From Candidatus Bathyarchaeia archaeon (GTDB taxonomy: Archaea > Thermoproteota > Bathyarchaeia > 40CM-2-53-6): a stretch of 64,000 nucleotides of DNA. Below are positions 3,222 to 41,100 of the stretch, one piece after another. Position numbers and translations under genes: made by a program. The stretch is from the NCBI GenBank assembly GCA_035935655.1, contig DASYWW010000046.1:154709-218708 (forward strand), written 5' to 3'. Numbering within the stretch: the first letter of the stretch is position 1; every line of letters begins with the position of its first letter. The notes below the pieces were generated by a model. That model saw only the letters and a list, made by a program, of their open reading frames with translations, had not been told where the DNA came from and did no database searches.

Positions 3222-3431
3222 TTGACCGTTGACTTCGAAGAAGACAATGATATCGACAGTTTCATCCGGTTTGTCCAGTACCACAGCAAGCGCCTGAAGT
3301 GTCCCAGCAAGGACGTGTTCATCCGGCTCGCTCACGAATGGGAAAAACAGCTGGTGAGCCACCCTGAGCCAAACAACGGCATTGGAATCAAGAAAGAGAA
3401 GAAAAAAACGCTCAAAGAACCATCCGAGTAA
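3222..3431 (+). CDS. Short ORF upstream of the intein gene, possibly its frameshifted N-terminal part
   Basis: 69 codons from TTG at 3222. The translation is helical and charged, with DIDSFIRFVQYHSKRLKCP and FIRLAHEWEKQL, and no family is recognised. It overlaps the following ORF by 50 bases in a different frame. The overlap contains a run of seven A (3401-3407), and both frames are lysine/arginine-rich there. It is either a separate small gene or the N-terminus of the next gene, separated by a one-base insertion or programmed slippage. Confidence 0.45.
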   Translation: MTVDFEEDNDIDSFIRFVQYHSKRLKCPSKDVFIRLAHEWEKQLVSHPEPNNGIGIKKEKKKTLKEPSE

Positions 3432-4725
3432 GTTCAAGATCCGGGTACGATACAAGTACCACTACTACCGCTGGATCAACACCCAAGACTACGGCAGCTT
3501 CAAAGACATCTACGAAAAATACAAAGACAAAGGGTACTCCTTCTGGTGCGTGCCAAAGGGAGACTCAGTGTTCACTAACCCCGGATTAGAATCGATGGGC
3601 GAGCACCTAGACTCGATAGTATCGGCGAATGGAAACTATGAGCTTCCATCTCGATACTTTGAGAGAGACTATGCCGGCGATCTTGTTGTCGTAAAGCCAT
3701 TCCTTCTTCCGGAAACGAGGTTGACTCCGGAACATCCTGTCTTAGCCTGCGAGTCAAATCCGCAAAAATCGAAGTGGTACGATCGTCAATCGAGACCATC
3801 GCTCAAGAAGACTTGGAAGTCCGCCGGAGAGCTAACAGAGAATGATTGGGTCTTCTTCCCACGATTCAGAGGGAATCGAGAAGGCGATCCTGAGCTCCTC
3901 TATCTTCTAGGGCTGTACATGGCTGAAGGATACCCCACTGGCAACCAGGTATACTTCGCACTCGGACGCACAGAACGGCAACTTGCCGAACACATCCTTC
4001 GGATGGCAGAAAAACACTGGAACGTCAAAGGCACGATCAACCGTCACAGAACCGGTCTTCTCGTACGCTTTTCCAAACCATCTTTTGCGGATTTCATGAG
4101 GAAAGAGTTTGGCAGCAGAGCGGTCAGGAAGAAGATCCCATCGTGGATTCTTGAACAAAAAGATCCTCAACCCTTCCTCGAAGGATGGCTAAAAGGAGAC
4201 GGGTTCAAACGTGGAAACACGTGGAGACTCACAACGTCATCCAAGACGGCCGCGTACCAAGCGCTGCTCATGGGTTCTCGGCTCGGCATTCTGCCGGCCA
4301 TTTACGAGGATGACAGAAAGGAGCGAGGGATGATCCAAGGGCGAAAGGTCAACGCGAAGCCCTCATACGAGATTCGATTCCATCAAGACGGCAGCAAGTA
4401 TTCAAACAAGGAAAGTCACGTTGTAAAGACGGATAACGGATTCTGGGTCAAGATAAACAAGATCGAGCGAGAGAAATTCTCGGGCAAAGTCTGTAACATG
4501 GAGACGCCGTCAAACACCTACCTTCTGTCCTTCATCGTACACAATTGCGCGGATCTACCACCGGAATATTCCAGCCAGGACGGAACATGGACAGGCTACA
4601 GGCTAGACGGAGACAAGACTCATACAGAATCTACACTGAAGAGGTATGGGCGCCACAAGGCGTGGATCGACAGCAGCTACAAGTTCGAAGGAAAGCCAGT
4701 AATCCTCGTCTATAATGCAGCCTGA
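3382..4725 (+). CDS. Protein of unknown function interrupted by an intein
   Basis: 447 residues as encoded. Removing residues 56-388 (the intein) leaves a host of about 114 residues. The N-extein is very basic and then aromatic (RVRYKYHYYRWIN, YGSFKDIYEKYKDKGYSFW); the C-extein starts CADLPPEYSSQDGTW and ends PVILVYNAA. I do not recognise the host family. Inteins usually sit at conserved active sites of essential or mobile-element enzymes, so the junction FW/CADL is probably functional. TTG at 3382 is the only start in this frame, and it lies inside the preceding ORF, which may be the real N-terminus (see the A7 run at 3401-3407). Confidence 0.55.
   Translation: MESRKRRKKRSKNHPSKFKIRVRYKYHYYRWINTQDYGSFKDIYEKYKDKGYSFWCVPKGDSVFTNPGLESMGEHLDSIVSANGNYELPSRYFERDYAGDLVVVKPFLLPETRLTPEHPVLACESNPQKSKWYDRQSRPSLKKTWKSAGELTENDWVFFPRFRGNREGDPELLYLLGLYMAEGYPTGNQVYFALGRTERQLAEHILRMAEKHWNVKGTINRHRTGLLVRFSKPSFADFMRKEFGSRAVRKKIPSWILEQKDPQPFLEGWLKGDGFKRGNTWRLTTSSKTAAYQALLMGSRLGILPAIYEDDRKERGMIQGRKVNAKPSYEIRFHQDGSKYSNKESHVVKTDNGFWVKINKIEREKFSGKVCNMETPSNTYLLSFIVHNCADLPPEYSSQDGTWTGYRLDGDKTHTESTLKRYGRHKAWIDSSYKFEGKPVILVYNAA
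3547..4545 (+). mobile_element. Intein with LAGLIDADG homing endonuclease (333 residues)
   Basis: The splicing blocks are all visible. Block A is CVPKGDSVFT at the first residue, block B is LTPEHPVLA (TxxH), block F is VCNMETPSNTYLLS, and block G is FIVHN followed by Cys+1. The first Cys, block B His, penultimate His, terminal Asn and downstream Cys nucleophile are all intact, so splicing should be possible. Two LAGLIDADG motifs are present, LLYLLGLYMAEGY and FLEGWLKGDGF. Each retains its acidic metal ligand (E and D), so the endonuclease may still be active. The size is normal for a full intein. Confidence 0.88.
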
Positions 4726-8070: not shown

Positions 8071-8904
8071 TTAAGAGAACGCGACATTCAGTCTAGTTTG
8101 CTCTTCGCTGGGGAGTTTCCAGTCCGCGACATTTGCGTTTTCTCGTACGTGGCCATTGTCGGATGCCTTCGGTATCGCTACGACATTATCATGCTGTAAG
8201 ACCCAGGCTAGGGCGACTTGGTTTCGGGATCGACTATGCCTCGTTGCGATTTCATCGAGGACTTTGAATGCTGGGCCCTTTCCCCTCGGAATCTTTCCTT
8301 GACCCAGCGGGCTGTACGCGATGACGGTCACGCTTTCCTTTTGACAATGATCGAGGAGTCCGCTTTCAGGGCTTCTGTCGACTAGGCTGTATTCGATCTG
8401 GTTGGAAACTATCTTCTCATGCGAGAGAGACTCTTGCGCCTCCCTCAACTGTTCAATGGAGAAATTGCTTACTCCGATAAACCGGATTAGACCATCGTTC
8501 ACGAGCTTCTCCATTGCCCGCATTGTCTCGGCGATGGGAATCTTCGGGTTCGGCCAGTGCAGCTGGTAGAGGTCCATCTGTTTTCGGTTTAGCCTCTTCA
8601 AGCTCATCCGGGCAGAATATAGAACGTCATCGTATGCGAAGTGGCGTGGAGAAACCTTGGAGGCGAGGAAGACCTGTTCGCGGCGTCCCTCGAGCGCTTG
8701 AGCCACAACCTCCTCGCTGTGGCCCGCACCATACATCTCCGCAGTATCGATGAGATTCATTCCAAGTTGAAGTCCGAGCCTGATAGCTTCAACCGAGGCC
8801 TTGTCTGTGGCAGAGTTGGGACCCATCTCTCCGCCCATTCCCCAGGTCCCTTGCCCGACAATCGGAATAGACTCGCCTGTCTTACCGAGGAGTCTATACA
8901 GCAA
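8071..8904 (-). CDS. Aldo/keto reductase
   Basis: 277 residues, normal for the family. The catalytic tetrad is visible: Asp53 and Tyr58 in LIDTAEMYG, Lys83 in LASKVSP, and His116 in YQLHWPNP. The NADP(H)-binding end contains AIPKAS followed by N. It should be a cytosolic NADPH-dependent carbonyl reductase of the Tas/YajO-like type; the substrate is unknown. It starts with TTG (MLYRLLGKTGESIPIVGQG), as expected for the first beta strand. It converges on the propeller gene and is not in an operon. A second, distinct copy lies at 23220-24191. Confidence 0.87.
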   Translation of the reverse strand: MLYRLLGKTGESIPIVGQGTWGMGGEMGPNSATDKASVEAIRLGLQLGMNLIDTAEMYGAGHSEEVVAQALEGRREQVFLASKVSPRHFAYDDVLYSARMSLKRLNRKQMDLYQLHWPNPKIPIAETMRAMEKLVNDGLIRFIGVSNFSIEQLREAQESLSHEKIVSNQIEYSLVDRSPESGLLDHCQKESVTVIAYSPLGQGKIPRGKGPAFKVLDEIATRHSRSRNQVALAWVLQHDNVVAIPKASDNGHVRENANVADWKLPSEEQTRLNVAFS

Positions 8905-9344: not shown

Positions 9345-10274
9345 TTAACGGTGCGCGTTTCTCCAAGTCTCCTCGATCCTGCTTGCACCGTTCGCGACAA
9401 GTTCCTCTCGCATCTCATGGGCGAGCTTTAGGCCGTCAGCCGTGAGCCCTGTCCTCTGAGCGAACACTCTTTCTTTTCCGTCAACTGAGAGAATGCACGC
9501 TCTTATCTGAATTCGGTCTCCCCTTGCCTCCGCCAGCCCCGCCACGGGAACTTTGCTGGTCTCCTCAAGACTCCGTACGAGTTCTCTTTCCGCGTTTATC
9601 TCAGCCCTGGTCGCCGGATCCTCTATGCTCATTAGTGTCTCGATAACTTTCAGATTGTCCCGGCGTGCAACAATCGCCAATGCTCCCTGACCAGGTGCCG
9701 GAATGAAATCGTCGATTGACAATCGTTCTGAAATTCTCTCAGCCATACCTAGCCTTGCTAGCCCAGCCTCAGCGAGTATGACCGCATCGAACTCGCCCCT
9801 GTCCATTCTCTCAATTCTTGTCTCGACGTTTCCGAACAGTGGCTCAGGCTTCACATCAGGCCTAGCTCGTCTAAGCTGGGCAACTCTGATCGGACTACTC
9901 GTTCCAATCCTCGATCCCTTTGGCAGATCCTTCAACTGCATGTCCGTATCGCTAACGAGCACCTCAGCTGGCGATCCTCTCTCCGGAACACACGCGATTA
10001 CAAGTCGAGTATTCCTGTAGCTGACAGGGACGTCCTTCATGTTGTGGACTGCGAAGTCGATTCTCCCCTCCGAGACCGCTTCGTCAACCTCCCTGTCGAA
10101 CGATCCCTTCAGTTCTAGAAAGAACAACGACCTCCTCGAATCCCTGTCACTAGAACTCTCAATGATCTTCCGATCGATCTTCAAACCTGGATTCTTTTGC
10201 CTAATCCGATCAACTACATGATCGGTCTGAGTCAGAGATAGCCTGCTGTTCCGGACTCCGACCTTGAGAAATAT
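9345..10274 (-). CDS. hemC: HemC-like protein (hydroxymethylbilane synthase homologue) lacking the cofactor Cys
   Basis: The fold and order match porphobilinogen deaminase: an N-terminal KVGVRNSRLSLTQTD, the catalytic HNMKDVPV, IGTSS, LFGNVETR, LAEAGLARLG and FIPAPGQGALA. However, the position that binds the dipyrromethane cofactor (LEGGCQVP in the family) reads LEETSKVP, so Cys is Ser. In TSSLRRQ the first Arg is Ile (TSSPIRV), and LRGNVGTR reads LFGNVETR. These residues bind cofactor and substrate, so ordinary activity is doubtful. The first standard start (TTG 10184) would delete the conserved N-terminus. The extended frame reaches 10274 (ATA, rest of codons continuous to a TGA at about 10300), giving the usual length of about 309 residues. 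No other haem genes are nearby. Confidence 0.7.
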   Translation of the reverse strand: MFLKVGVRNSRLSLTQTDHVVDRIRQKNPGLKIDRKIIESSSDRDSRRSLFFLELKGSFDREVDEAVSEGRIDFAVHNMKDVPVSYRNTRLVIACVPERGSPAEVLVSDTDMQLKDLPKGSRIGTSSPIRVAQLRRARPDVKPEPLFGNVETRIERMDRGEFDAVILAEAGLARLGMAERISERLSIDDFIPAPGQGALAIVARRDNLKVIETLMSIEDPATRAEINAERELVRSLEETSKVPVAGLAEARGDRIQIRACILSVDGKERVFAQRTGLTADGLKLAHEMREELVANGASRIEETWRNAHR

Positions 10275-10386
10275 CCTCGAGTCACCGTGGCAATAGTTTC
10301 ACGATAGCGATCGACCGCGCAGCGCCCAGATGACTCAGCAAGAAGATTTCATGCGATAATAAGACTTCACGACATACCCCATATCG

Positions 10387-10677
10387 TCAGAAGACAGACG
10401 AAGGCAGGTCCGAACCTGGAGCCTTGTCAGTCTTATGCGTTCCCGTCAACGTTTTTACCACGTCCTCTAGCCTCGGATGGGTCTTTTGGAGTCGTATCTC
10501 GTCCTCTTCGAAACCCATCTCAGCCATGCCATGATCGCTTAGGAACTTCGCCGCCCAGGACACAGCGTTTCCCGGAATCCTCAACTGTTTGGATATCTCG
10601 TCCAGCTTGTGCCAGGCCCCATCCACAATATGCATCCAGACGTACCAGAGTAGCATCGGTCGGGGTCCGCCAGGCAA
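10387..10677 (-). CDS. Small winged-helix-like DNA-binding protein
   Basis: 96 residues. The central part, HKLDEISKQLRIPGNAVSWAA followed by KFLSDHGMAEMGFEEDEIRL, has the helix-turn-helix plus wing layout of short archaeal regulators. The C-terminal 30 residues are polar and probably disordered. The start is TTG at 10677; an internal ATG at PM-LLWYVW is possible. The target is unknown. It lies between the HemC-like gene and a divergent membrane protein. Assignment rests on pattern only. Confidence 0.5.
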   Translation of the reverse strand: MPGGPRPMLLWYVWMHIVDGAWHKLDEISKQLRIPGNAVSWAAKFLSDHGMAEMGFEEDEIRLQKTHPRLEDVVKTLTGTHKTDKAPGSDLPSSVF

Positions 10678-10802: not shown

Positions 10803-11339
10803 ATGGGCCCGAGAGGAAAAGTTCTCACCTCGCTCCTCCTGATCATCATAATCATTGTTGCCGTCTGGCAGTTCACAAGCCCCGCACTCATACCGTCAGT
10901 CGGCACGAAATACCTCTCCTCAACACAATACGCCAACCGCGGAGGCTGGGTGCAACTCGAAGTTTCCGGCTACGGCAAAGTCTTCCTGATCGTCTCCATC
11001 GCCAATCTGACCTATCCTCGAACCACGCTCCCGACCTCATACTCGATAATCGTCAGCAAGGCGAACGAAACTGCTCTTCCCTCGTACATGCGCGGTTTCA
11101 CCGTGAAGCTCACCTCTCTCAAAATCCAAGACAACTACGACGGTTCCACCTCAAGCTGGGCGCCAACGGGCAATTTTCCAGACGCTGTCCAAGCTACGAC
11201 CCTCTTCAACTTCAAAACCTCAGCCAACCATCAGCTCAGATTCATGATAAGCTATCAGCTCTACGAAATTCTCACCATTGGATCACTCGTAGATCATTCC
11301 TCAACACAATCATACAACATAACCCAGAATGTCGTCTGA
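10803..11339 (+). CDS. Membrane-anchored extracellular protein of unknown function
   Basis: 178 residues: one N-terminal membrane segment (VLTSLLLIIIIIVAVWQF) after a basic MGPRGK, then a beta-rich Ser/Thr-rich domain (GGWVQLEVSGYGKVFLIVS, FMISYQLYEIL) with several N-x-S/T sites. The orientation suggests the C-terminal domain lies outside the cell. No family is recognised. The gene starts with ATG and is followed 62 bases later by an O-methyltransferase with its own TATA box. Confidence 0.6.
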   Translation: MGPRGKVLTSLLLIIIIIVAVWQFTSPALIPSVGTKYLSSTQYANRGGWVQLEVSGYGKVFLIVSIANLTYPRTTLPTSYSIIVSKANETALPSYMRGFTVKLTSLKIQDNYDGSTSSWAPTGNFPDAVQATTLFNFKTSANHQLRFMISYQLYEILTIGSLVDHSSTQSYNITQNVV

Positions 11340-11401: not shown

Positions 11402-12031
11402 TTGGCCATAACATACGACTATATCGACGATTACCTGTACCGCATCGCCCAACCAAGAGATCTCCTTCTTCAGAAGATGGAGGAGGAAGCAGAGTCAGGA
11501 GCAGTCCCTATCATCGGACCCTTGGTCGGCCGGCTCCTCTACAACCTCGCTCGCAGCAGCCAGAGCAAGAAAGTCCTCGAAATAGGAACAGCCATCGGCT
11601 ACTCAGGAATATGGCTCGGACGAGCAGTCGCACCACTCAACGGATCCGTCACAACCATCGACAAAGATCCCGAACGTGTCAAGATAGCTGAGAAGAACAT
11701 TGCCGAGGCCAAGCTCCAGAAATTCATCAAGGTCCTCAAAGGAGACGCTCTACAGATTCTACCGACTCTCAAAGATGAATATGATCTGGTCTTCCTTGAT
11801 TCTGACAAGGACATCTACTTGGACGCGTTCAAGTTGAGCGTGATAAGGCTCCGGAGAGGCGGATTATTCGTCGCTGACAACACATTGTGGGGTGGCGACG
11901 TTGCTAAAGGTGGCAAGTCAGAGCTGACCCAGACGATGATCAAGTTCAACAAGGAAGTATCCCGCTACCCAGGACTGTCGACAGTAATCGTTCCACTCCG
12001 CGACGGTGTCCTGGTCGGTTTGAAAGAGTAG
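11402..12031 (+). CDS. SAM-dependent O-methyltransferase (catechol-OMT-like)
   Basis: 209 residues, the usual size of the O-methyltransferase_3 family. The SAM site is KVLEIGTAIGYSGIWLGRA (motif I), with VTTIDKDPERVKIAEKN (acidic ribose-binding Asp) and YDLVFLDSDKDIYL, whose Asp binds metal. ADNTLWGG is the usual loop carrying further metal ligands. It probably methylates a hydroxyl group on a small molecule in a metal-dependent way; the substrate is unknown. It starts with TTG (MAITYDYIDDYLY), which matches family N-termini, and is nearly leaderless. Confidence 0.85.
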   Translation: MAITYDYIDDYLYRIAQPRDLLLQKMEEEAESGAVPIIGPLVGRLLYNLARSSQSKKVLEIGTAIGYSGIWLGRAVAPLNGSVTTIDKDPERVKIAEKNIAEAKLQKFIKVLKGDALQILPTLKDEYDLVFLDSDKDIYLDAFKLSVIRLRRGGLFVADNTLWGGDVAKGGKSELTQTMIKFNKEVSRYPGLSTVIVPLRDGVLVGLKE

Positions 12032-12214: not shown

Positions 12215-14974
12215 ATGGAAATCCAACAAATACCGAAGGTTCCCCAAGGGGAATTCCGATATCAAAGGTCCTATACAAAGCCAGGAGTCCACCCATACGA
12301 CGCTGTAAAATGGGAGATCAGGGACGCAGTCATAACAGACCACAAAGGACAGGTGATCTTCGAGCAAAAGGGCGTCGAAGTTCCCTCATTCTGGTCCCAG
12401 ACCGCCACAAACATTGTCGCCTCGAAATATTTCCGAGGCAGACTCGGAACCCCTGGCAGAGAAAGTAGCGTCAAACAACTCATAGGCCGTGTCGCGGGAA
12501 CAATCGCCCGCTGGGGCCGAAAAGGAAACTACTTCCTAGACGAAGAGGAAGCCGATAATTTCGAGTCAGAACTCACACACATCCTCCTCCACCAGATGGC
12601 TGCCTTCAACAGCCCCGTATGGTTCAACGTAGGAGTCGAAGACCGTCCGCAATGCTCTGCATGCTTCATCAATTCTGTTCAGGACGATATGCGATCGATA
12701 ATGCAGCTCGCCCAGACAGAAGGCATGCTATTCAAGTACGGATCCGGAACAGGATCAAACCTCTCATCCCTCCGATCATCAAAAGAACACCTGTCAACAG
12801 GTGGAAAGGCAAGTGGCCCCGTCTCATTCATGAAGGGCTTTGACGCGTTCGCAGGCGTCATAAAATCCGGTGGACGAACCCGTCGAGCCGCAAAGATGGT
12901 CATTCTCAACGTCGACCATCCCGACATTGAGGAATTCATCTGGTCTAAGGCGAAAGAGGAGAAGAAGGCTTGGGCTCTAATCGACGCTGGCTACGACGGC
13001 GCCGTTGACGGAGAAGCTTACAGCTCTATCTTCTTCCAGAATGCCAACCACAGTGTTCGTGTCACAGACGAGTTCATGCACGCGGTGACGGAGGACAAGG
13101 AGTGGAAGACCCGATACATCACAAATCACCAGGTAGCGGATGTCTACAAGGCACGGAACCTGATGAGAGAAATGGCCGAGGCCGCTTACATCTGCGGCGA
13201 CCCTGGAATCCAGTATGACACGATAGTCAACAAGTGGCACCCATGTCCGAACACGGCTCGGATCAACGCGTCCAACCCGTGCTCTGAATACATGTTTCTC
13301 GACGACTCCGCATGCAACCTCGCCTCACTGAACCTCATGAAGTTCAGAACCCTGGATGGAGAGTTCGATGTCGAATCTTTCGAACATGCAACCGATGTCG
13401 TGATCAGCGCCCAGGAGATTCTCGTCAGCAACGCAGGCTACCCTACCCAAGCCATAGAGAAGAATAGTCACGACTTTCGTCCGCTGGGACTTGGCTACGC
13501 AAACCTTGGCGCTCTGCTCATGGCGCGAGGCCTACCTTATGATAGCGACGAAGGCCGAAACTACGCCGCCGCCATATCTGCCCTGATGTCCGGCAGAGCA
13601 TACGCAACATCCGCCCGGATCGCCAAGAGGTTAGGTCCGTTCAAGGGATACACTGTAAACGAGAAGCCCTTCCTCAACGTTATCGACATGCACCGGGCCC
13701 ACGCATACAAGATTCCTTCCGAAGGAGTCTCAGAAGAGCTCTTGAAAGCAGCAATGAAGTCCTGGGATGACGCTCTCTCGTTAGGCGAGAGATTCGGATT
13801 CAAGAACGCCCAGATATCTGTCATCGCACCGACCGGAACGATCGCGTTCATGATGGACTGCGATACCACCGGCATCGAGCCCGACATCGCCCTGATCAAA
13901 TACAAATGGCTCGTCGGAGGCGGCGTAATCAAGATCGTCAACAACACCGTCCCCGAAGCGCTAACAAAACTCGGCTATTCCAAGACCGAGGCCACTGAGA
14001 TTCTCAAATATCTCGAAGACCACGATACCATCGAAGGCGCTCGAGGTCTCAAGCAAGAACACCTAGCCATTTTCGACTGCGCGTTCAAACCTGCGAAAGG
14101 AACGAGAAGCATACACTACATGGGTCATGTCAAGATGATGGCCGCCGTCCAACCCTTCATTTCCGGCGCCATATCCAAGACCGTGAACATGCCTGGCAAT
14201 GTCTCCGTGGACGAAATAGTCGAGACCTACATCACCGCTTGGAAGATGGGATTGAAAGCCATCGCCATATACCGTGATGGCTCGAAGAGAACCCAGCCGC
14301 TAACCACAACCATCCAGGATAAGAGCAAAGCAGCCGAGAAGACGAAGGAGCAGGTGGTCTTCAAACCATTCCGACGTCGTCTCCCAGAAGAAAGAGAAGC
14401 GATAATCCACAAGTTCTCTATCGCGCAGAACGAAGGCTATCTGATGGTGGGACTATACGACGACAACACGCCCGGTGAAATATTCGTGGTCATGTCGAAA
14501 GAAGGCAGCACGATCTCCGGACTAATGGACGCGTTCTCAACCTCCATCTCCCTAGCCCTGCAATACGGCGTCCCACTGAAAGTTCTTGTGAACAAGTTCA
14601 CACACACACGATTCGAACCTGCCGGCATAACCACCAACCAGGATATCCGATTCGCAAAGTCCGTAGTCGACTACATCTTCAGATGGCTAGGCTTGAAATT
14701 CCTTCCAAAAGAAGAACAGGACGCTCTCGGACTCGCCAAGACAACGCTTGAGAACGGAACCCAGGTCAAACTTGTTGAGCCCGTTGGTGCAAAGGCAGCG
14801 GCCCCGGCAGCCGCAGAGATGAAACCTCTCGAGCCTCCCGAATTTGCTACTCCTCTCGCGAGCTTCGATAACCAGTCTGACGCGCCTGCGTGTGAGAACT
14901 GTGGGATGATAATGGTCCGAGCAGGATCCTGTTACAAGTGCAACAACTGCGGCAACACAAGCGGTTGCGGCTAG
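12215..14974 (+). CDS. nrdJ: Adenosylcobalamin-dependent (class II) ribonucleoside-diphosphate reductase
   Basis: 919 residues, typical of NrdJ. It makes deoxyribonucleotides using a B12-derived thiyl radical, without oxygen. Visible motifs: CSACFIN (first redox Cys) near residue 147, the effector and substrate region GSGTGSNLSSLR, NPCSEYMFLDDSACNLASLN carrying the active-site Cys, Glu and partner Cys, and the phosphate-binding APTGTIAFMMDCDTTGIEP. A TSCPD-like domain follows around 720-830. The C-terminus ends in a zinc-ribbon-like Cys cluster (CENCGMI, CYKCNNCGNTSGCG), whose cysteines reduce the active site. Starts at ATG with a strong purine-rich site. Convergent with the NfeD-type gene, 9 bases apart. 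Confidence 0.93.
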   Translation: MEIQQIPKVPQGEFRYQRSYTKPGVHPYDAVKWEIRDAVITDHKGQVIFEQKGVEVPSFWSQTATNIVASKYFRGRLGTPGRESSVKQLIGRVAGTIARWGRKGNYFLDEEEADNFESELTHILLHQMAAFNSPVWFNVGVEDRPQCSACFINSVQDDMRSIMQLAQTEGMLFKYGSGTGSNLSSLRSSKEHLSTGGKASGPVSFMKGFDAFAGVIKSGGRTRRAAKMVILNVDHPDIEEFIWSKAKEEKKAWALIDAGYDGAVDGEAYSSIFFQNANHSVRVTDEFMHAVTEDKEWKTRYITNHQVADVYKARNLMREMAEAAYICGDPGIQYDTIVNKWHPCPNTARINASNPCSEYMFLDDSACNLASLNLMKFRTLDGEFDVESFEHATDVVISAQEILVSNAGYPTQAIEKNSHDFRPLGLGYANLGALLMARGLPYDSDEGRNYAAAISALMSGRAYATSARIAKRLGPFKGYTVNEKPFLNVIDMHRAHAYKIPSEGVSEELLKAAMKSWDDALSLGERFGFKNAQISVIAPTGTIAFMMDCDTTGIEPDIALIKYKWLVGGGVIKIVNNTVPEALTKLGYSKTEATEILKYLEDHDTIEGARGLKQEHLAIFDCAFKPAKGTRSIHYMGHVKMMAAVQPFISGAISKTVNMPGNVSVDEIVETYITAWKMGLKAIAIYRDGSKRTQPLTTTIQDKSKAAEKTKEQVVFKPFRRRLPEEREAIIHKFSIAQNEGYLMVGLYDDNTPGEIFVVMSKEGSTISGLMDAFSTSISLALQYGVPLKVLVNKFTHTRFEPAGITTNQDIRFAKSVVDYIFRWLGLKFLPKEEQDALGLAKTTLENGTQVKLVEPVGAKAAAPAAAEMKPLEPPEFATPLASFDNQSDAPACENCGMIMVRAGSCYKCNNCGNTSGCG

Positions 14975-29124: not shown

Positions 29125-32100
29125 TTGGTAAACAGGTTACCTCTGGGGCTAGTTGCACTCATCTGCATGATCGCCCTCTCAGCTACTGGCACTACCGTTC
29201 CCGTTTCACACGCCGCGACCGCGACATCATTCACTTTCTCTGTTGGAGGAGATCATGGCGCTTCGCTGACAGCAGGCGACACGGCGGCCAGTTTGAGTCG
29301 GCTGGCAGCCTCTGGCTCGGATTTCTATCTAGCGATAGGAGATCTGAGCTACGATGGCGCGATAGATGGTACGAATTGGTGCAGCCAGTTCAAGGGTTCA
29401 TACAACAATGTCGAAGTTCTCGCCGGGAACCACGACACAGGGGAAGAAAATAGTACCGCTCAAGCTACGAGAAGCTATGAGAGGTACGTCAATGGGTGCC
29501 CCTACACTCTCACTCCTTCACCTTTGAGCTGTGGTCCCGTCCTACTCAACTGCTATGGGAAAGAGTACTACTTCGACTATCCCGCTGTCAACCCCATTGC
29601 CCGATTCATAATGATCTCTCCGGTTGTCTACAACGTTACTGGAGTCTGCACTCCACTAACCACTATCAGGTGCAACGCTTCTTGGCCGGGCACCACCTGC
29701 ACTGATACGTTTGGATGCTGGGGTTACAACTTCGGCGATCCCCACTACAGCTGGGTGTCAAGCACGATCGACTCTGCTCGGGCATCAAGCACCATCAAAT
29801 GGATCCTTGTTGGCATGCACAAGGTCTGCATTAGCGCGGGAGATCAAACCTGTAACATTGGTCCCGATCTGTTGAACCTGATGATTTCCAAAAAAGTGGA
29901 TCTCATTTTGGAAGGTCATGATCACTCATACCAGCGAAGCAAGCAGCTTGCTTTCAACACTAGCACCTGCACTAAGATTACAACTAGCAATAGCTATGCG
30001 ACGTACAATCCGAACTGTATTGTCAACGACGGGTCTGCTGGAGTCTATACTCCTGGAGCTGGCACCGTGGTTGTCATTCAAGGAACCTTCGGAGCTCCCT
30101 TCAACACGGTGAACGACACGTCCTTAGGTGGTTGTAGCCCCTGCGCGGCGGAAGCTCCGTATTTTACAAAGCTAATGGGGACAAACACGCCCGGCAACGG
30201 GCATGGTTTCATGCAATACACGGTATCCGCTAGTCGGATAGACGCGAAAAGCTCGTTTTCAGGATCATTCCAAGATAGCTTCACCATAGGACAGGCGTTC
30301 ACTATGTCGTCCAGTCCCACGTCGCTCGTACTTCAGGTGGGAGCATCCAGCTCATCGACTATTACCGTTACCAGCCAAGCTGGCTTCACTGGCATAGTAA
30401 GCCTTGGCTTGACCGCGTCAGGGTGTGCGTGTGCAAGTCCTATGATAACGCCGGGTAGTGTTGATCTTACCGCTCAGAACCCGACGGCTACGGCGTCACT
30501 TCAAGTCACTGGGCTGTCTCCCGGAGGTAACGTAACGCTCACAGTGACGGGGACATCTGGCACGCTTTCATTTTCTGCCCAAGTTGCGGTTAGCGTTCAA
30601 GACTTTAGCATCTCTGCTTCCAAGCCTGCTCTTACGCTCAATTTCAACGCCTCAGACACGTCTACGATCAACCTGGCCAGTCTGAACAATTTTGCTGGGA
30701 CCATAACCCTCTCTCCCACAAGTTCGCCGTCGGGACTCACGTTCTCAATTAGCCCGTCAAGCATTCCCATTGCCTCAAAGAGTTCGGGATCTGCGACCCT
30801 CTCTGTGACTGGGTCGGCTCCGGGTAACTATACTGTAGCAGTTGGCGCAACAAGTGGACCCACGTCTCACGCGACGATAGTCAAAGTCCGGGTCCTAGGA
30901 GACTTTACCATGAGCACTACCAAGACCGCGTTGACGCTGAGCCCTGGAACGATTGATAGCTCGATTATCATAACACTGATAGGCTCTGGAAAGTATTCAG
31001 GGACCGTCAATCTAGCCGCTTCTGTGACTCCCTCTGGTCCCACAGCAACACCTGGATCTTCGAGTCTCAAACTGAAGGCCACACCGACAAACGATGGAAC
31101 GAACTCGACGGTTCTCACAGTTAACGCTGGAATGATTTCCGGGACTTACAGCATCAACATAACCGCAACGAGCGGGTTGCTATTCCACTCCACAATTGTA
31201 ACCTTGACCGTGACTAAAGCCAACCCTACAATTGGGACTACTCTCTCAGCATCATCGATTTCCGCAGGTGGCTCAGTGAGCGATTCAGCGGTTCTAACCG
31301 GTGCTACAACCACGGCGGGGGGCACTGTCACCTACAGTGTGTTCTCAGGAGCTATCTGCTCCGGCACACCAGTCTTTGCTCAAGCTGTACCAGTCACAAA
31401 TGGCATAGTTCCCAGCTCAAGGGCTGTTCAATTTAATGTCACAGGGTCTTACGTTTGGCAGGCCACGTACACCGGCGATCCGAACAATAATCCTCCACAA
31501 CCCACTACGTGCGGCTCGGAGGCTCTGACAGTCAAACAGACGGCGACAACTGTCGGGACTAACCTTTCGGCTTTATCGATCGTTCCTGGTGGAGTAGTTT
31601 CAGATTCTGCTACGCTGACGGGGTTCTTTGGCGGCTTCAGCACGGGTGGCACGGCCACTTACAGCGTGTTTGCTGGGACTGGATGCACTGGGACACTCGT
31701 TTTCACCCAGACGGTGAGTGTAAACTCAGTGAGTGGAGCGATTCCCAACTCAAGGAATGTGCAGTTCAATGCTACTGGTACTTTCCAGTGGCTGGTTATT
31801 TACAGTGGGGATTCTAACAATGGTCTTTCGACGAGCCTTTGCGGCTCGGAATCCCTCTCTATTGGGAAGGCCACGCCATCGATCACCACCTCACTCTCGC
31901 CCAATTCTGTAGTCGTTGGGAACTCCGCCAGTGACACTGCAACGGTGACAGGCGGGACCGCGCCAACAGGAACCGTGACCTTCAATGTATACTTGGGCAG
32001 TGCCTGTTCCGGCACGGCCGTTGCGACGAAGACTGTTCCATTAGCTTCAGGGTCCGCAGGCCCTGTCAGTGTAGTCTTCAACAGCACTGGTACTTTCAAC

Positions 32101-35100
32101 TGGCAAGCCGTCTACAGTGGAGACGCAAGCAATGGTGTAGCTACAAGTGTTTGTGGAACCGAGACCCTGACTGTTGCATTGGCTTCTCCTGCGATTGCTG
32201 AGACCGTCTCTGCAACAACAATCATTGTCGGGAATTCGGCAAATGCCAACGCGACACTATCGGGAGGCTTCAACCCAACTGGAACAGTTACCCTCGGTAT
32301 TTTCTCCGGAACTGGCTGCCCAGGGTCGCCTGTGAAAAGTAAGACGTTTACCCTGGTATCCAGTTCCGTAGGTCCATTCTCCGTTATCTTCAATTCTACT
32401 GGAACCTTCAATTGGCAAGCTGCCTACAGTGGCGACGCCAATAACAATCCCAATGCCAGTTCTTGCCAGTCTCTGATCGTGAACAAAACAACTCCAGCTA
32501 TCGCGACGACACTATCGCAGTCCAGCCTCACTGTCGGAGGCTCGGTGTCTGACTCGGCAAGCATATCTAACGGATTCCAGGCAAGTGGTACTGTTACCTA
32601 CAAGTTCTTCGCGGGAAGCTCATGCACGGGAACTGGGACCCAGGTAGGGTCACCCGTCACCGTCACAAGCGGCGTTGTCCCCAATTCCAATTCACAACCC
32701 TTCAACGCAGCTGGCCTCTACAGCTGGAACGCCGCTTACAGTGGCGATGCAAACAACAGTCTTGCTACTAGTCCTTGCGAGCCTCTTACAATAAGCAAAA
32801 CCAATCCTACAATCGCTACCGTTCTCTCGCAGAACCCAATAACCGTAGGTAACTCAGCTACAGATTCTGCAACTCTAACTAACTTTTTCCAAGCCGGAGG
32901 GACAGTAACCTACAGTTTCTTCTCTGGCTCTGCATGTGGTGGAACTGCAACCGTCGTTGGATCTCCGGTTGCCGTATCGAATGGAATCGTCCCGAATTCT
33001 GCATCTCAGACTTTCAACGCCGCGGGACCATACAGCTGGAATGCAGCATACAGCGGTGATACCAACAACAATGTTGTCACTAGCGTTTGTGAACCTCTAA
33101 CTGTTAACCCGAAGGGAGTAACCATCGCCACAACCCTGTCCTCGACGACAATTACCGTGGGAAGCTCAGTGTTCGACTCCGCCACGATAACAGGTGCTAC
33201 AACCACCGCGGGCGGAACAGTCACATACAATCTCTTTACAGGCGGAACATGTTCCGGGTCCGCTTCCCCTGTCTCGACGGTGACCGTGACAAATGGAGTA
33301 GTTCCCAATTCTTCTCCTCAGACCTTCAGTTCTATTGGAATGTACAGCTGGAACGCGATCTATAGCGGCGATCCAAACAACTCAGGAGCTCCGAGTCCAT
33401 GCGAACCCCTGTCAGTAAGCAAGACAAGTCCAACGATTACCACTTCGCTGTCCTCTAACTCGATTATTGTTGGTCAGCCTGTCACCGAGTCCGCAACTCT
33501 CACAGGTGGCTTCCAAGCCGGAGGATCAGTAAGCTACCTAGAGTTCTCATCGAGTACCTGCTCAGGCAGCAGCACTGTCGCGTCCACCGTGACCGTGACG
33601 AGCAATGTTATCCCAAGTTCATCCCCGATCAATCCTGTTCCTTCGGGAACCTACGGATTCGAGGCATCCTATTCCGGAGACGCCAACAACAACCCGATAG
33701 TCAGCTCTTGCTCATCTCTGACAGTCAACAAGGCCAGTCCAACAATCACGACAAGTCTCTCGCAGACAACAATCCCTGTTGGATCCTCGGTCACTGATTC
33801 GGTCACTATGACTGGTGGCTACCAACCAAGTGGGACTGTAGCCTACTCATACTTTACGGGAAGTTCATGCACCGGCACTGCCACCAGTGTCGGTTCACCG
33901 GTTACAGTCACGAATGGCGTCGTACCTGGCTCTTCGTCTCAGGGATTCAACAGCGCCGGCTCCTATGGCTGGAACGCCGCGTATAGTGGCGATGCCAACA
34001 ACAACCCAATTACAAGTGCCTGCGAGCCTCTGACAGTCAGCAAGGCCGGCCCTACACTCACTACGGCTCTTTCTGCGAATCCCATTACGGTAGGTGGCTC
34101 AGTGTCCGATTTCGCCACCATGAACGGGGGCTTCCAAGCAGGCGGGTCCGCAACCTACTTCCTCTTTTCCACGGCCGACTGCACCGGTTCCAAAATCCAG
34201 GTTTCCATTGTCACCGTGAGCAACGGAGTCATACCCAACTCTGTTTCTCAAACCTTCAACTCAGCCGGTCTGGCTAGTTGGAACCTTGGCTATAGTGGGG
34301 ACTCCAACAACAACCCAACGACCAGTCCCTGTGAGCTTCTTACCGTGAGCAAAGCGAGTCCAACCATCAGCACAACCCTCTCGCTGAGCGTCATAACAGT
34401 TGGCGGCTCAGTCTCAGATTCGGCGACGATGACTAACGGTTTCCAGGCGAGTGGGACTGTCACGTACAGTTTCTTCTCCGGTTCAACATGTGCAGGACCC
34501 GCAACCATCGTCGGATCTCCTGTAACGGTGGCGGGTGGAATCGTCCCGAACTCTGCATCTCAGACTTTCAACGCCGCGGGACCATACAGCTGGAATGGAG
34601 TATACACCGGTGATGCCAACAATAACGCAGCCACGAGTACATGCGAGCCTCTGACCGTCAATCCAAAAGGTGTGGCAATCACGACTAACCTTTCCTCGAC
34701 AACCATAGTCGTGGGAAACTCAGCATCAGACTCCGCCGTATTGACCGGTGCCACTACCAATGCCGGCGGAACGGTCACCTACAATCTCTTCTTGAATGGC
34801 ATATGCTCCGGGACTTCTTCCATTATCTCGCAAGTCACGGTAGCGAGTTCAACTGTCCCGAATTCTAGGACGGTCATATTCAATAGTACGACCGCGTTCA
34901 GCTGGAACGCGGGCTACAGTGGAGACGCTAACAATGCCCCAGCAACAAGTCTCTGCGAACCGCTCACTATCCAAAAAGCTTCGCCAACACTCTCCACAAC
35001 TGTTTCCGCTCCATCCGGAACGGTAGGTAGTGCTTTCCACGACTCCTCAACAATGACCGGATCGTACAACGCTGGGGGAACTGTCTCCTATAGCATTTTC

Positions 35101-38100
35101 AGCAACAATGCTTGTTCTGGAAACGCTACTCCGGTTGGGAATCCAGTAATCGTTGCCGGGGGAACAGCGCCTGATTCCGTCTCAGTAACTCCGTCTCCAG
35201 CAGGACCCTACTCGTTCCAGGCCTCTTACAGCGGCGACGCGAATAACAACGCTGTGTCGAGTGGTTGTGAACCCTTCTCGGTCACCAAGGCTAGTCCCAC
35301 TATTTCCACCGCGCTTGCAACCAATCCGATTGCGGTTGGCGGATCCACTTCCGACTCTGCCACTGTCACTGGCGGTTTCAGCCCCAGCGGAACAGTTACT
35401 TACAGTTACTTCCAAGGCTCCGTCTGTGCTGGTCCCGGCACAACCGTCGGTCTTCCTGTTACCATGACCAGTGGTCTAGTACCTAGTTCTCCCTCTCAGA
35501 CTTTTAGTTCTGCGGGACCATACAGTTGGAACGCAGTCTACAATGGCGATTCAAACAACAATGCTGTTGCAAGTGCATGCGAGCTTCTAACGGTCAATAA
35601 GGCTAGCCCCGTTATCAGTACAACACTCTCCACGAATCCAATAACTGTCGGTGGCTCAGTCTCCGATTCAGCTACTATGACGGGGGGTTTCCAGGCTGGA
35701 GGGACTGTTACTTACAACTGGTTCACTGGCAATACATGTAGCGGTGCAGCGAATGTTGTTTCGACCGTGGCCCTGGTTGGTGGCGGCATACCAAGTTCTG
35801 CAGCTCGAGCGTTCAATTCGGCAGGACCCTACAGTTGGAACGCGGTCTATGGTGGAGATGCGAACAACAACCTGGCCACCAGCCCCTGCGAACCTCTCAC
35901 GGTCAACCCCACGACCGGAATCACGGTCTCCACAACGCTATCCTCTTCAAGTATCACAGTAGGCGGGTCCGTATCCGATTCTGCAACACTCACCGGCGTC
36001 ACGTCTGGAGCTGGAGGAACCGTAACCTACAACTCGTTCCAGACAGCAACATGTACCGGAACACCTGGAGCAGTGTCAACAACTACCGTTACAAACGGGG
36101 TAGTTCCTGGATCAGCATCAAAGACCTACAGCTCTGCTGGCTCGTTTAGCTGGAATGCCATTTACAGTGGTGACGCAAACAATGGAGGTGCCACGAGTCT
36201 TTGCGAGCCTCTCAATGTGAACCAAGCCGTTCCAAGCATAACAACTACCGTCTCTATTGCCAACGTCCCAGTCGGGACTCCTGTTCATGACTCCGCCACC
36301 CTGTCGAACGGGTTTAACGCCGGCGGCTCTGTGACATACACACTGTTCTCCGATACGGGATGTACTGCCTCCGGAGTAGTCATCTCAACAGTCACCGTCA
36401 CCAACGGTGTCGTTCCAGACTCTTCAGCGACAAGCCCAACCCCAGCGGGCGCGTACGGCTTCCAAGCATCCTATGCCGGTGACGCGAACAACAAACCCGC
36501 AATAAGCGTGTGCGAACCGTTCAACGTGCTGAAGGCAAGTCCAGGAATCACAACAACTCTATCGCTAACAACAATCCCTGTCGGATCCTCTGTTTCCGAT
36601 TCCGCCACTATGACTGGCGGTTACCAGCCCAGTGGCACCGTAACCTATGTGTTCTTCATAGGGAGCTCCTGCACGGGGAGTCCCACTACCGTCGGGTCTC
36701 CAGTCGCTGTAACGAATGGGATCGTACCCGGGTCCGCGCCCCAGACCTTCAACAATGCGGGCGGGTACGGCTGGAGCGTTGTCTATAGTGGCGATGCAAA
36801 CAACAACCCCGTTACCGGTTCCTGCGAACCCCTCACTGTCAACAAGGCCAACCCCGCGATCAGTACGGCTCTTTCTGCGAATCCAATAACCGTGGGCGGC
36901 TCGGTATACGATTCCGCTACCATGACGGGCGCATTTCAAGCGGGAGGTTCCGCTACGTACTTCTGGTTTACAACGGGCGACTGTACTGGTTCTTCGGCAA
37001 CGGTTTCCACAGTAACCGTCAACAATGGAGCCATCCCAAGTTCATCTCCTCAGCTTTTCTCCTCCGCAGGCTCCTTCAGCTGGAACGCCCGCTACTTCGG
37101 TGACTCCAATAACAATCCTGCGACTAGTCCATGTGAGCCGCTCACCGTAAACAAGGCAAGTCCAACCATTAGCACAAGTCTCTCTGCGAATCCAGTAACA
37201 GTTGGCAGCTCTGTATCCGACTTCGCAACTATGACCGGGGGTTTCCAGCCCGGCGGCTCTGCGACATACTTCCTGTTTTCGACGGCTGATTGCACGGGTC
37301 TCAAAAGTCAGGTTTCTGTTGTTACCGTGAACAATGGCGTCATACCTAGCTCTATTCCTCAAACTTTCAACACCGCCGGTCTGTATAGCTTGAACGCTGG
37401 GTACAGCGGGGACGCCAACAACAACGCGTCGACCAGTCCTTGCGAGCTTCTTACGGTGAACAAGGCGAGTCCAGCAATAAGCACCAACCTATCACAAACC
37501 ACCATAGTAGTTGGCAACCCGGTCTCAGATTCGGCGACGATAACCAACAGCTTCCTGGCAAGCGGAACGGTCACGTTCAGTTTCTACACAGGCCCAACTT
37601 GTGCCGGAACCGCGACCGTTGTTGGAACTCCAGTCACTGTTACAAATGGAATCGTGCCCAGTTCATCTTCTCAGACGTTTAGCGCTGCTGGAGCATTCAG
37701 TTGGAACGCTGCATATAGTGGCGACGCAAACAACAACCCCGTTACCAGTCCCTGTGAACCTCTTACCGTCAATCCGAAGGGCGTGGCGATTGGAACTTCT
37801 CTGTCGTCAACCGCGATAATCGTTGGGGGTTCAGCATTCGACTCTGCAGTATTGACGGGTGCTACTAGCAATGCTGGTGGAACCGTTACCTACAATCTCT
37901 TCTCTAGCGGAATATGCTCCGCATCCCCTGCATCTATCTCCAAAGTTACTGTAACCAGTTCAACGATTCCGAACTCCAGGTCCGTCATTTTCAACAACAC
38001 CAGTCCAGTCAGCTGGAACGCGGTTTACAGTGGAGACCCTAACAACGCTCCTGCAACAAGTCTCTGCGAACCCCTTACCGTAAACAAAGCTAATCCTACA

Positions 38101-41100
38101 CTCGCTACCACCGTTTCGGTTGCATCTGCAACAATTGGCAGCGCCTTCCACGACTCTGCCACTCTGGCCGGAGCGTACAACGCGGGAGGGACCGTCTCCT
38201 ACAGCGTCTTCAGCAATAATGCGTGCTCGGGCAATAGCACTCCAGTTGGCAATCCAGTAAATGTAGCAGGCGGGGTTGTAGCTGATTCAGCACCTGTAAC
38301 ACCGTCTACAGCCGGACCCTACTCGTTCCAAGCATCGTACAGTGGTGATGCAAACAACAACGGCGCATCGGGCACCTGCGAACCCTTCGCAGTAAACAAG
38401 GCCAGTCCATCAATTACAACAACACTTTCAGCAAACTCGATCCCAGTCGGCGGCTCTGCCTTCGACTCCGCCAGCATTGCAGGTGGTTTCAACCTTGGAG
38501 GAACAGTAACCTACTCCTATTTCCAGAATTCAAACTGTGTCGCTCCCAGCACAATTGTAGGTTCACCCGTGACCATTACAAATGGCGTTGTGCCTAGCTC
38601 TCCCTCCCAGACCTTTAGTCCTGCGGGACAGTACAGTTGGAACGCGGTCTACAACGGTGACCCGAATAACAACGGGAACGCGAGCCCTTGCGAACCTCTT
38701 ACTGTCAACAAGGCTAACCCGACCATCACTACAGCTCTTTCTCAGAATCCGATAACGGTCGGTGGATTAGTTTTTGATTCTGCCACCATAGCCTCTGGCT
38801 TCCAGGCAGGAGGCTCCGTTACTTACAACTGGTTCACTGGTGTTGCCTGCAATGGGGCGCTGACAGTATTACCATCTGTGACAGTGGTAAGTGGCCAGGT
38901 GCCGAACTCGGTGTCCCAAGTTTTCAACTCCGCAGGACCCTACAGCTGGAGCGCTATCTATTCCGGCGATACTAGCAATAATGGCGCCACAAGTGCTTGT
39001 GAGCCTCTCACTGTCAACCCCACTTCGGGAGTCGTAATTTTCACTGTTCTTTCCTCATCGAGTATCACCGTCGGTGGATCGGTGACAGATTCTGCCACGC
39101 TGACAGGAGTCACGTCTGGAGCAGGAGGAACTGTCACTTACAACTGGTTCCAGACCGCATCATGCGCCGGACCGTCTGGAATTGTGTCAATTGTCACTGT
39201 CGTCAACGGTAACGTTCCGGGCTCGGCGTCCAAGGCCTTCAACACAGCTGGATCGTTCAGCTGGAACGCTCTTTACAGTGGCGACTCTAACAACTCCGTG
39301 GCCTCTAGCAACTGCGAACCCTTGACAGTGAGCAAGACAAGCCCATCGATTTTCACCTCGCTATCAACTAACCTGATTACTGTCGGTCAGTCTATCACTC
39401 AATCAGCGGGACTGACAGGTAGCTTCCAGGCAGGCGGCTCAGTAACCTACCTTGAATTCTCAACAGGTACCTGTTCAGGGACCGGTGTTATGGTGTCCTC
39501 GGTCACGGTTACCAACAACGTGATTCCAAGTTCGCCTCAAATTACTCCCGTTCCCTCAGGAACCTATGGCTTCGAAGCCTCGTATTCCGGCGATACCAAC
39601 AACAATCCGATAACCAGCTCTTGCTCACCTCTAACAGTCAACAAGGCCAGTCCAACGATTACGACTAGCCTATCGTCGAATGTCGTTGCCATCGGGTCCC
39701 CGGTTTATGATTCAGCTTCCATAACCGGCGGATTCCAGGTTAGTGGCACGGTCACCTACATTTTCTACACGGGCAATTCTTGCTCTGGCGTTCAAACCGC
39801 AACCTCAACAGTCACAGTAACCAGTAATGGTATTCCCTCATCGTCTCCTGCGACCCCGGACTCGCTAGGTTCCTGGTCATGGAAGGCGGCGTACTCTGGC
39901 GACGCTAACAACCTCGGTTCCAGTAATTGCGCGGGTTTGGTTGTCACCAAGACCACTCCCACGATCGCGTCCAATCTTGCATTCCCAACGATCAGCGCCG
40001 GTGATTCTATCCATGACTCTTCTACCATGTCCGGTGGTTTCCTGGCCGGAGGGACAGTCACATACAGTTTCTACACCGGCTCGACCTGCAGTGGATCGGG
40101 AACTGTCGTCGGATCTCCAGTCGCTGTCACAAACGGAATTGTTCCAGACTCTGCATCTCAGAGCTTCGCCACTGCTGGCACGTACGGCTGGAACGCGGTC
40201 TACAGCGGAGATTCAAACAACAATCAGGCCACCAGTCCCTGCGAGCTTCTAACAGTCGTCCAGGCAGTGTCGAGTCTAACCCTGCCACAAGTAGGAGCAA
40301 TTACCGTTGGAAACTCCTTGTCTTTGTCCGCTACACTTCTGGGGACCACCGGCAATGCCGGTGGAACTGTCACATACAATCTCTACACTACCGCGAACTG
40401 CCAGGGGACAGCTATTCCGGTCCAGACTGTACCCGTAACAAGTGGATCAGCTCAACCGTCTAGGGCTTACCAGTTCACCTCCGCGGGATCTTTCGGTTGG
40501 AACGCCGTGTACAGCGGCGACCCGAACAACGGTCATGCTACCAGCTCATGTGGGCCGCTTTTGGTCAACAAGGCGACTCCGACCGTTTCAACGACGCTTT
40601 CAGCCAACGTGATTACGAAGGGTGACGTGGTATCCGGCTCTGCAACATTAACTGGTGGATTCGCAGCAGGAGGAACACTAACCTACAACCAATTCTCCTC
40701 CTCAGATTGCACTGGAAATCCCACCATTGTGGCCACTGTCACTGTGAACAACAGTGTTGTACCTTCTTCGTCTTCGCAAACTTTCGCAACCGACGGAAAA
40801 TTCAGCTGGAATGTCACCTATAGTGGAGACAATAATAATACTCCAGCCAAGGGGTCATGTAGAGTGCTGACCGTGACTGCTCCACCACTTCTTTCGGTCC
40901 CCGGTCCCATGTCAGTCAATTCTGGCTCCCCTATTCGTTTCACAGTCAACGCGACTGACCCCTCCTGGAACAACATCACAATCACAGCATCGGGACTTCC
41001 TTCCGGATCCACCTTCCCAGGCGCTCAATCTCTCACTGGGAAAGCGTCAGCACTTTTCTCCTGGACGCCCTCCGATTCTCAAGCTTCAGCCGATTACAAA

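Follow-up and report, generated by a model that had tools for sequence, protein, structure and literature searches.

The window, by which we mean the whole 64,000-nucleotide stretch of DNA that was analysed, comes from a soil Bathyarchaeota metagenome-assembled genome (MAG; 2.5 Mb, 65 contigs, 95.8% complete). It carries on its minus strand a paralogue of hydroxymethylbilane synthase (HMBS, also known as porphobilinogen deaminase or HemC) in which the cysteine that holds the dipyrromethane cofactor is replaced. We refer to this copy as HemC2 and to the ordinary copy in the same genome as HemC1. The gene and its neighbours are listed here, with the evidence for each in brackets.

8071-8904, minus strand: aldo/keto reductase (AKR), the downstream neighbour; in some species separated from HemC2 by the haem cluster (PF00248, synteny)
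9345-10274, minus strand: HemC2, Cys-less hydroxymethylbilane synthase paralogue, 309 aa when read from an AUA at 10274-10272 (TIGR00212, PF01379, AlphaFold2)
10272-10286, minus strand: candidate initiation region of HemC2, GGTGA at 10286-10282 with the AUA at 10274-10272 (upstream alignment of the HemC1 and HemC2 genes of the genus)
10387-10677, minus strand: small conserved protein without a Pfam match, by eye resembling a winged helix; belongs to the ancestral locus (synteny)
10803-11339, plus strand: conserved membrane-anchored protein with no Pfam match, ancestral flank (synteny)
11402-12031, plus strand: O-methyltransferase, ancestral flank (PF01596, synteny)
12215-14974, plus strand: class II (B12-dependent) ribonucleotide reductase, ancestral flank (PF02867/PF08471, synteny)

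The HemC2 reading frame runs from 10274 to 9345 on the minus strand and ends in TAA (9347-9345). The protein matches TIGR00212 over its whole length with 275 bits, the curated cut-off being 164, and PF01379 with 214 bits. AlphaFold2 predicts the three-domain HMBS fold for it with a pLDDT of 90, the weakly predicted part of the model being the mobile active-site loop, and Foldseek superposes the model on E. coli HMBS (1ah5 and 1pda) with TM-scores of 0.88-0.89; the initial annotation, made from the letters of the window, had supposed that the overall fold remained, and the model agrees with it. Upstream of the gene an in-frame TGA lies at 10301-10299, and no ATG, GTG or TTG occurs between this stop and the AUA. 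In the subclade that bears HemC2, the HemC1 and HemC2 genes have in common the upstream stretch CACGGTGACC, followed closely by an AUA, and an in-frame stop lies nine codons upstream of their starts, mostly with no intervening ATG, GTG or TTG. This common stretch points to duplication of hemC together with its start region. We note that the AUA a few bases past GGTGA is conserved among the HemC1 and HemC2 genes of the subclade, the HemC1 of one genome (G004) having AUC, and that the start position in other members of the genus is ATG or TTG; it is possible, judging from these alignments, that translation of the subclade's HemC1 and HemC2 is naturally initiated at AUA.

The positions of HemC2 that bear on catalysis, all located by alignment and given in E. 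coli HMBS numbering, are as follows.

9546-9569, minus strand: cofactor loop LEETSKVP, with Ser (AGC, 9557-9555) in place of the dipyrromethane cysteine C242 (alignment to E. coli HMBS)
9834-9836, minus strand: Phe codon at R149
9885-9890, minus strand: Ile-Arg of TSSPIR; R131 is lost and R132 kept
10032-10037, minus strand: K83-D84 of MKDVP, including the catalytic Asp, conserved
10041-10043, minus strand: Asn at S81, shared by all HemC2 and by a homologue from genome G020; every other HemC compared has Ser

The LEGGCQVP of E. coli HMBS aligns without gaps to LEETSKVP, which confirms that the cofactor cysteine is gone, as had been read from the window, and Ser stands at this position in all ten HemC2 proteins (motif EETSKVP or EGTSKVP). 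Because the same change is found in all ten species, at the same locus and in independent MAGs, it is neither a chance event nor a sequencing error; that independent MAGs share the locus, and that the window's contig is 230 kb long, also rules out HemC2 being an artefact or mis-binned. A comparison with archaeal and bacterial HemC had been called for, and in it both C242 and R149 are present in 33 of 33 HemC from outside the genus and in ten of ten HemC1 from within it. The cysteine is invariant in every ordinary HemC aligned, and the one exception to retention of both residues among the alignable HemC of other archaea and bacteria is a divergent Longimicrobiales protein. A cysteine in another register, which would have undercut the original claim, was looked for in the ten HemC2 and none takes the place of C242: the sole cysteine common to all of them, that of RACIL in the C-terminal domain, aligns to MVACIF of HemC1, where it is additional to the cofactor cysteine.

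Two arginine differences had also been remarked upon, and these fared differently. At R149, the arginine of chain elongation, the window's HemC2 has Phe and all ten copies have Phe or Trp, so that this difference is specific to HemC2. The Ile at R131 is not, since Leu already stands there in the HemC1 (TSSLLRV) of all ten genus members compared, where the 33 other HemC have Arg, and the difference is thus partly ancestral. In E. coli, R131L and R132L block cofactor binding, and R149H and other substitutions impair activity (PMC3945110). We note that the Leu131 found naturally in HemC1 matches the R131L substitution, with which the E. coli enzyme reportedly no longer binds its cofactor (PMC3945110). 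The claim that the catalytic Asp of MKDVPV is retained was correct. The window's HemC2 keeps R11, Q19, K83, D84, R132, R155, R176, Q198 and R232, and of these R11, K83, D84, R132, R155 and Q198 are invariant in the ten HemC2, while R176 is Lys in two and F62 is Val in three. C242 (C261 in the human enzyme) carries and moves the dipyrromethane cofactor, a movement central to the mechanism of HMBS (PMC8561815), and with this cysteine and R149 missing from every copy, normal HMBS activity of HemC2 would be very unlikely.

Loss of catalytic residues is also what a decaying duplicate would display, and decay was one of three fates first proposed for the gene, beside pseudoenzyme and new-function paralogue. 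The window's copy has the longest terminal branch of the ten (0.23, the others being 0.02-0.09), and dS of HemC2 between species is mostly above that of the flanking genes and of HemC1. Nevertheless, all ten reading frames are intact and free of frameshifts, and omega, estimated with IQ-TREE codon models (MG, F3x4), is 0.107 for the ten HemC2, 0.110 for the four from genomes in which no haem genes were found and 0.118 for a trio that includes the window's copy, as against 0.148 for seven HemC1. Moreover, 36 columns are conserved at 95% or more in ordinary HemC, and all ten HemC2 agree with 24 of them; those altered in every copy are S81, R149, C242 and, conservatively, D106 (D106E). Taken together, omega and the ten intact copies indicate that HemC2 is under purifying selection, and they largely refute a decaying pseudogene, an account that we find hardly credible; the other two proposed fates are supported, the gene being retained in genomes that gave no hemB or hemE match.

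The differences that are fixed between HemC1 and HemC2 number eight (G12N, T51R, P52S, E63D, S81N, L130P, G241T and C242S). Four of them fall on pyrrole-contacting residues, taken from PMC3945110 with C242 added, and seven fall within one residue of such a contact. With all columns as background, P is 0.005 for the four direct contacts and 4e-5 (hypergeometric) for the seven; Fisher tests whose background is the columns that vary in neither group give 0.11 and 0.007. The changes thus concentrate at the cleft and cofactor site, which fits a change of function and not decay.

HemC is usually a single-copy gene. Two HemC occur in only 6 of the 257 genomes of the class searched, all six in the window's genus, and HemC2 is intact, at one syntenic locus, in at least ten species of that genus. 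The relatives are MAGs designated Candidatus Bathyarchaeota or Crenarchaeota (BA_3, 9, 21-25, and 13_1_40CM_3_52_10 / _17), which presumably come from grassland soil. In five genomes (G003, G007, G011, G016 and G018) the order small protein, membrane protein, methyltransferase and ribonucleotide reductase is found with the AKR in front, or in G018 with the AKR itself absent from the locus, and HemC2 is missing. HemC2 is therefore a derived gain that was inserted later into an older locus, and since the neighbours were present before it arrived they need not be its partners; we set them aside as candidates for that role. In a maximum-likelihood tree HemC2 forms one group with the long-branched homologue from G020, a member of another genus of the same family, next to the subclade's HemC1 and within the HemC of the genus, and on this phylogeny HemC2 arose by duplication of the hemC that the genus already had. 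The G020 homologue (L043:3931-4869) is sister to HemC2 in the tree (96/82), shares S81N, lacks R149 and adjoins a ribonucleotide reductase, and neither hemB nor hemE was found in its genome. It differs from HemC2 in having Cys at 242 (SADCNVP), Asp at S13 and Arg at Q19, and its placement is unsure because its branch is very long (1.64).

A second hemC in the window's genome, which the initial annotation had suggested looking for, does exist, and it is the only further HemC there. This HemC1 (contig C40, L044:8409-9341) has the ordinary motifs LEGGCKVP and IRGNV and lies in a cluster with the order hemA-hemB-hemL-hemC-hemD, with hemH, hemE and hemQ alongside, on a different contig from HemC2. 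It belongs to the paralogue group nearest to HemC2, with which it is about 61% identical, and has the same unusual start region of AUA type. However, HemC1 has C242, R149 and S81 and sits in the haem cluster, whereas HemC2 is solitary and adjoins the AKR. In G004, G009 and G013 the AKR is separated from HemC2 by the whole haem cluster; in G000, G012, G014, G015 and G017 it is not. Horizontal spread of the cluster was considered as a cause of its patchy presence and was rejected, dS of the haem genes being similar to that of flanking genes, with no sign of recent transfer.

We find that hemB and hemE are both present in six HemC2 genomes, in which HemC1 coexists with HemC2, and that profile searches of four others (G012, G014, G015 and G017) gave no match to another HemC, to hemB (PF00490) or to hemE (PF01208). 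Since these are profile searches in MAGs that are 80-95% complete (93-95% for G012, G014 and G017, 80% for G015), the absence of haem genes is strong and stops short of proof; assembly gaps are unlikely to explain the four genomes jointly, and might do so for any single one. The four fall into two separate HemC2 groups, G012 with G014 and G015 with G017, and G006, which is close to the latter group, still carries the haem cluster, so that, most simply, the cluster was lost at least twice while HemC2 was retained. HemC2 thus persists in genomes that seem unable to provide porphobilinogen. All four genomes encode full-length COX1 and a haem-O synthase (CtaB), and they appear to need haem with no visible means of making it. 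We note that G018 and other family members likewise have a haem-copper oxidase and haem-O synthase, with hemB, hemC1 and hemE not found, and that all these organisms are apparent haem auxotrophs or have another source of haem. A need for haem does not predict HemC2, COX1 and CtaB occurring in genomes both with and without it. Use of uroporphyrinogen for sirohaem or cobalamin was also considered, but none of the 21 genomes has a uroporphyrinogen methyltransferase (SUMT) above the cut-off, an uninformative result.

These genomes bear on whether HemC2 could be a working HMBS with its cofactor attached through Ser or Thr, or bound non-covalently. Most of the substrate-binding residues are retained and the protein scores above the cut-off of the hemC equivalog family, as such an enzyme would, but no copy retains C242, R149 or S81, and the mechanism centres on movement of a Cys-linked cofactor. 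Where HemC2 is the only HemC, neither the supply of its substrate (HemB) nor a use for its product (HemE) was detected, and in the six other genomes HemC1 is present as well. We regard this account as very improbable.

That HemC2 regulates the haem pathway, say as a subunit that pairs with HemC1 or HemA or as a sensor of porphobilinogen, seems to us a long shot. In G004, G009 and G013 HemC2 immediately precedes hemA-B-L-C-D on the same strand, and dead paralogues that regulate a live enzyme, as those that activate enzymes of trypanosomatids, are known (PMC3663545, PMC5201418). Yet the gap between HemC2 and hemA is about 0.5-0.8 kb in such genomes, and the window's genome has the cluster on a different contig. 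Furthermore, a regulator of this kind would always be found together with its live partner, while the four genomes retain HemC2 with HemC1, HemB and HemE not found, which argues against a role exerted on HemC1 alone. It is nonetheless possible that HemC2 has a role tied to haem synthesis in the six genomes that have both it and the haem cluster.

On the strength of its sequence and predicted fold HemC2 is a member of the HemC superfamily, and by its defining residues and genome context it does not qualify as a hydroxymethylbilane synthase. It resembles the E. coli enzyme (1ah5) in full-length homology, predicted fold, Asp84 and most of the substrate arginines, but has Ser242, Phe or Trp149, Asn81 and Thr241 and occurs where hemB and hemE are not found. 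Having been kept in at least ten species, four of them with no haem-making genes found, HemC2 is probably no longer a haem enzyme but a repurposed protein. It has lost residues essential to HMBS and is maintained under selection, which, given its presumed inactivity, would make it a pseudoenzyme. Our preferred reading, with a probability of roughly 60%, is a protein whose cleft binds an acidic ligand and which performs no deaminase chemistry, since the fold and most of the carboxylate-binding residues are retained. A hemC duplicate would have lost covalent attachment of dipyrromethane (C242S, G241T, R149F/W, S81N) and with it the ability to serve as a normal HMBS, and purifying selection would have retained it for another role. 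The HemC fold being of the type II binding-protein kind, the product might be a soluble two-domain cleft protein in which R11, K83, D84, R132, R155, R176 and Q198 would hold a small carboxylate-rich ligand and porphobilinogen would not be polymerised; the ligand would not be a product of the cell's own porphobilinogen pathway.

The main rival to an acidic-ligand cleft protein is a new catalytic activity, in which the cleft, with Asp84 and its arginines, would catalyse another reaction on an acidic substrate with no dipyrromethane primer. Invariance of D84, K83, R132, R155 and Q198 in the ten HemC2, an omega below that of HemC1 and the concentration of changes in the cleft are all consistent with this, and the retained D84, K83 and R132 would also fit residual catalysis. 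Nevertheless, R176 and F62 vary as described, no partner pathway is visible, and the AKR, methyltransferase and ribonucleotide reductase predate HemC2; we consider a new enzyme unlikely. It is quite unlikely, to our mind, that HemC2 is a neofunctionalised tetrapyrrole handler that binds, senses or delivers scavenged haem or porphyrin acids and so replaces biosynthesis in archaea that have a haem-copper oxidase and haem-O synthase but no haem synthesis.

Text searches of open-access papers turned up no HemC paralogue that lacks the cysteine. Trypanosomatid prozymes of deoxyhypusine synthase and AdoMet decarboxylase (PMC3663545, PMC5201418) are, like HemC2, duplicates of metabolic enzymes that have lost catalytic residues and kept the fold, but they need a live partner, whereas HemC2 persists where a live HemC is not found. 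A conserved Cys-less paralogue that has outlived the haem pathway in several species would mean that evolution can co-opt the HemC fold for another role. As HemC2 passes the TIGR00212 equivalog cut-off, automatic annotation would wrongly report a step of haem synthesis in archaea that lack the pathway, and the HemC2-only genomes that encode a cytochrome oxidase raise the question of where their haem comes from. HemC2 is small and apparently soluble, and so is amenable to testing.

A second HemC homologue with no cofactor cysteine also occurs among the Longimicrobiales (L126, L166-L177), and this distant case suggests that non-enzymes derived from HemC may be commoner than recognised. The Longimicrobiales family is bacterial, is far more divergent than HemC2, has lost the MKD motif as well and is of independent origin. 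We note that its members (L126:3-575; L166-L177) are about 300 aa long, that low-scoring PF01379 matches of this kind occur in 14 of 58 genomes and are the only match in six, and that at several loci the HemC-like gene is followed by adenylyltransferase-, rph- and rdgB-like genes, named by eye.

Lastly, two other features of the window deserve mention. At 3382-4725 lies a gene for a LAGLIDADG (PF14528) protein that has intein-like features and that relatives also carry upstream of the HemC2 locus, and at 29125-41283 lies a giant reading frame of 4052 aa in which a phosphoesterase-like N-terminal part and many repeated Ig-like units were recognised by eye.
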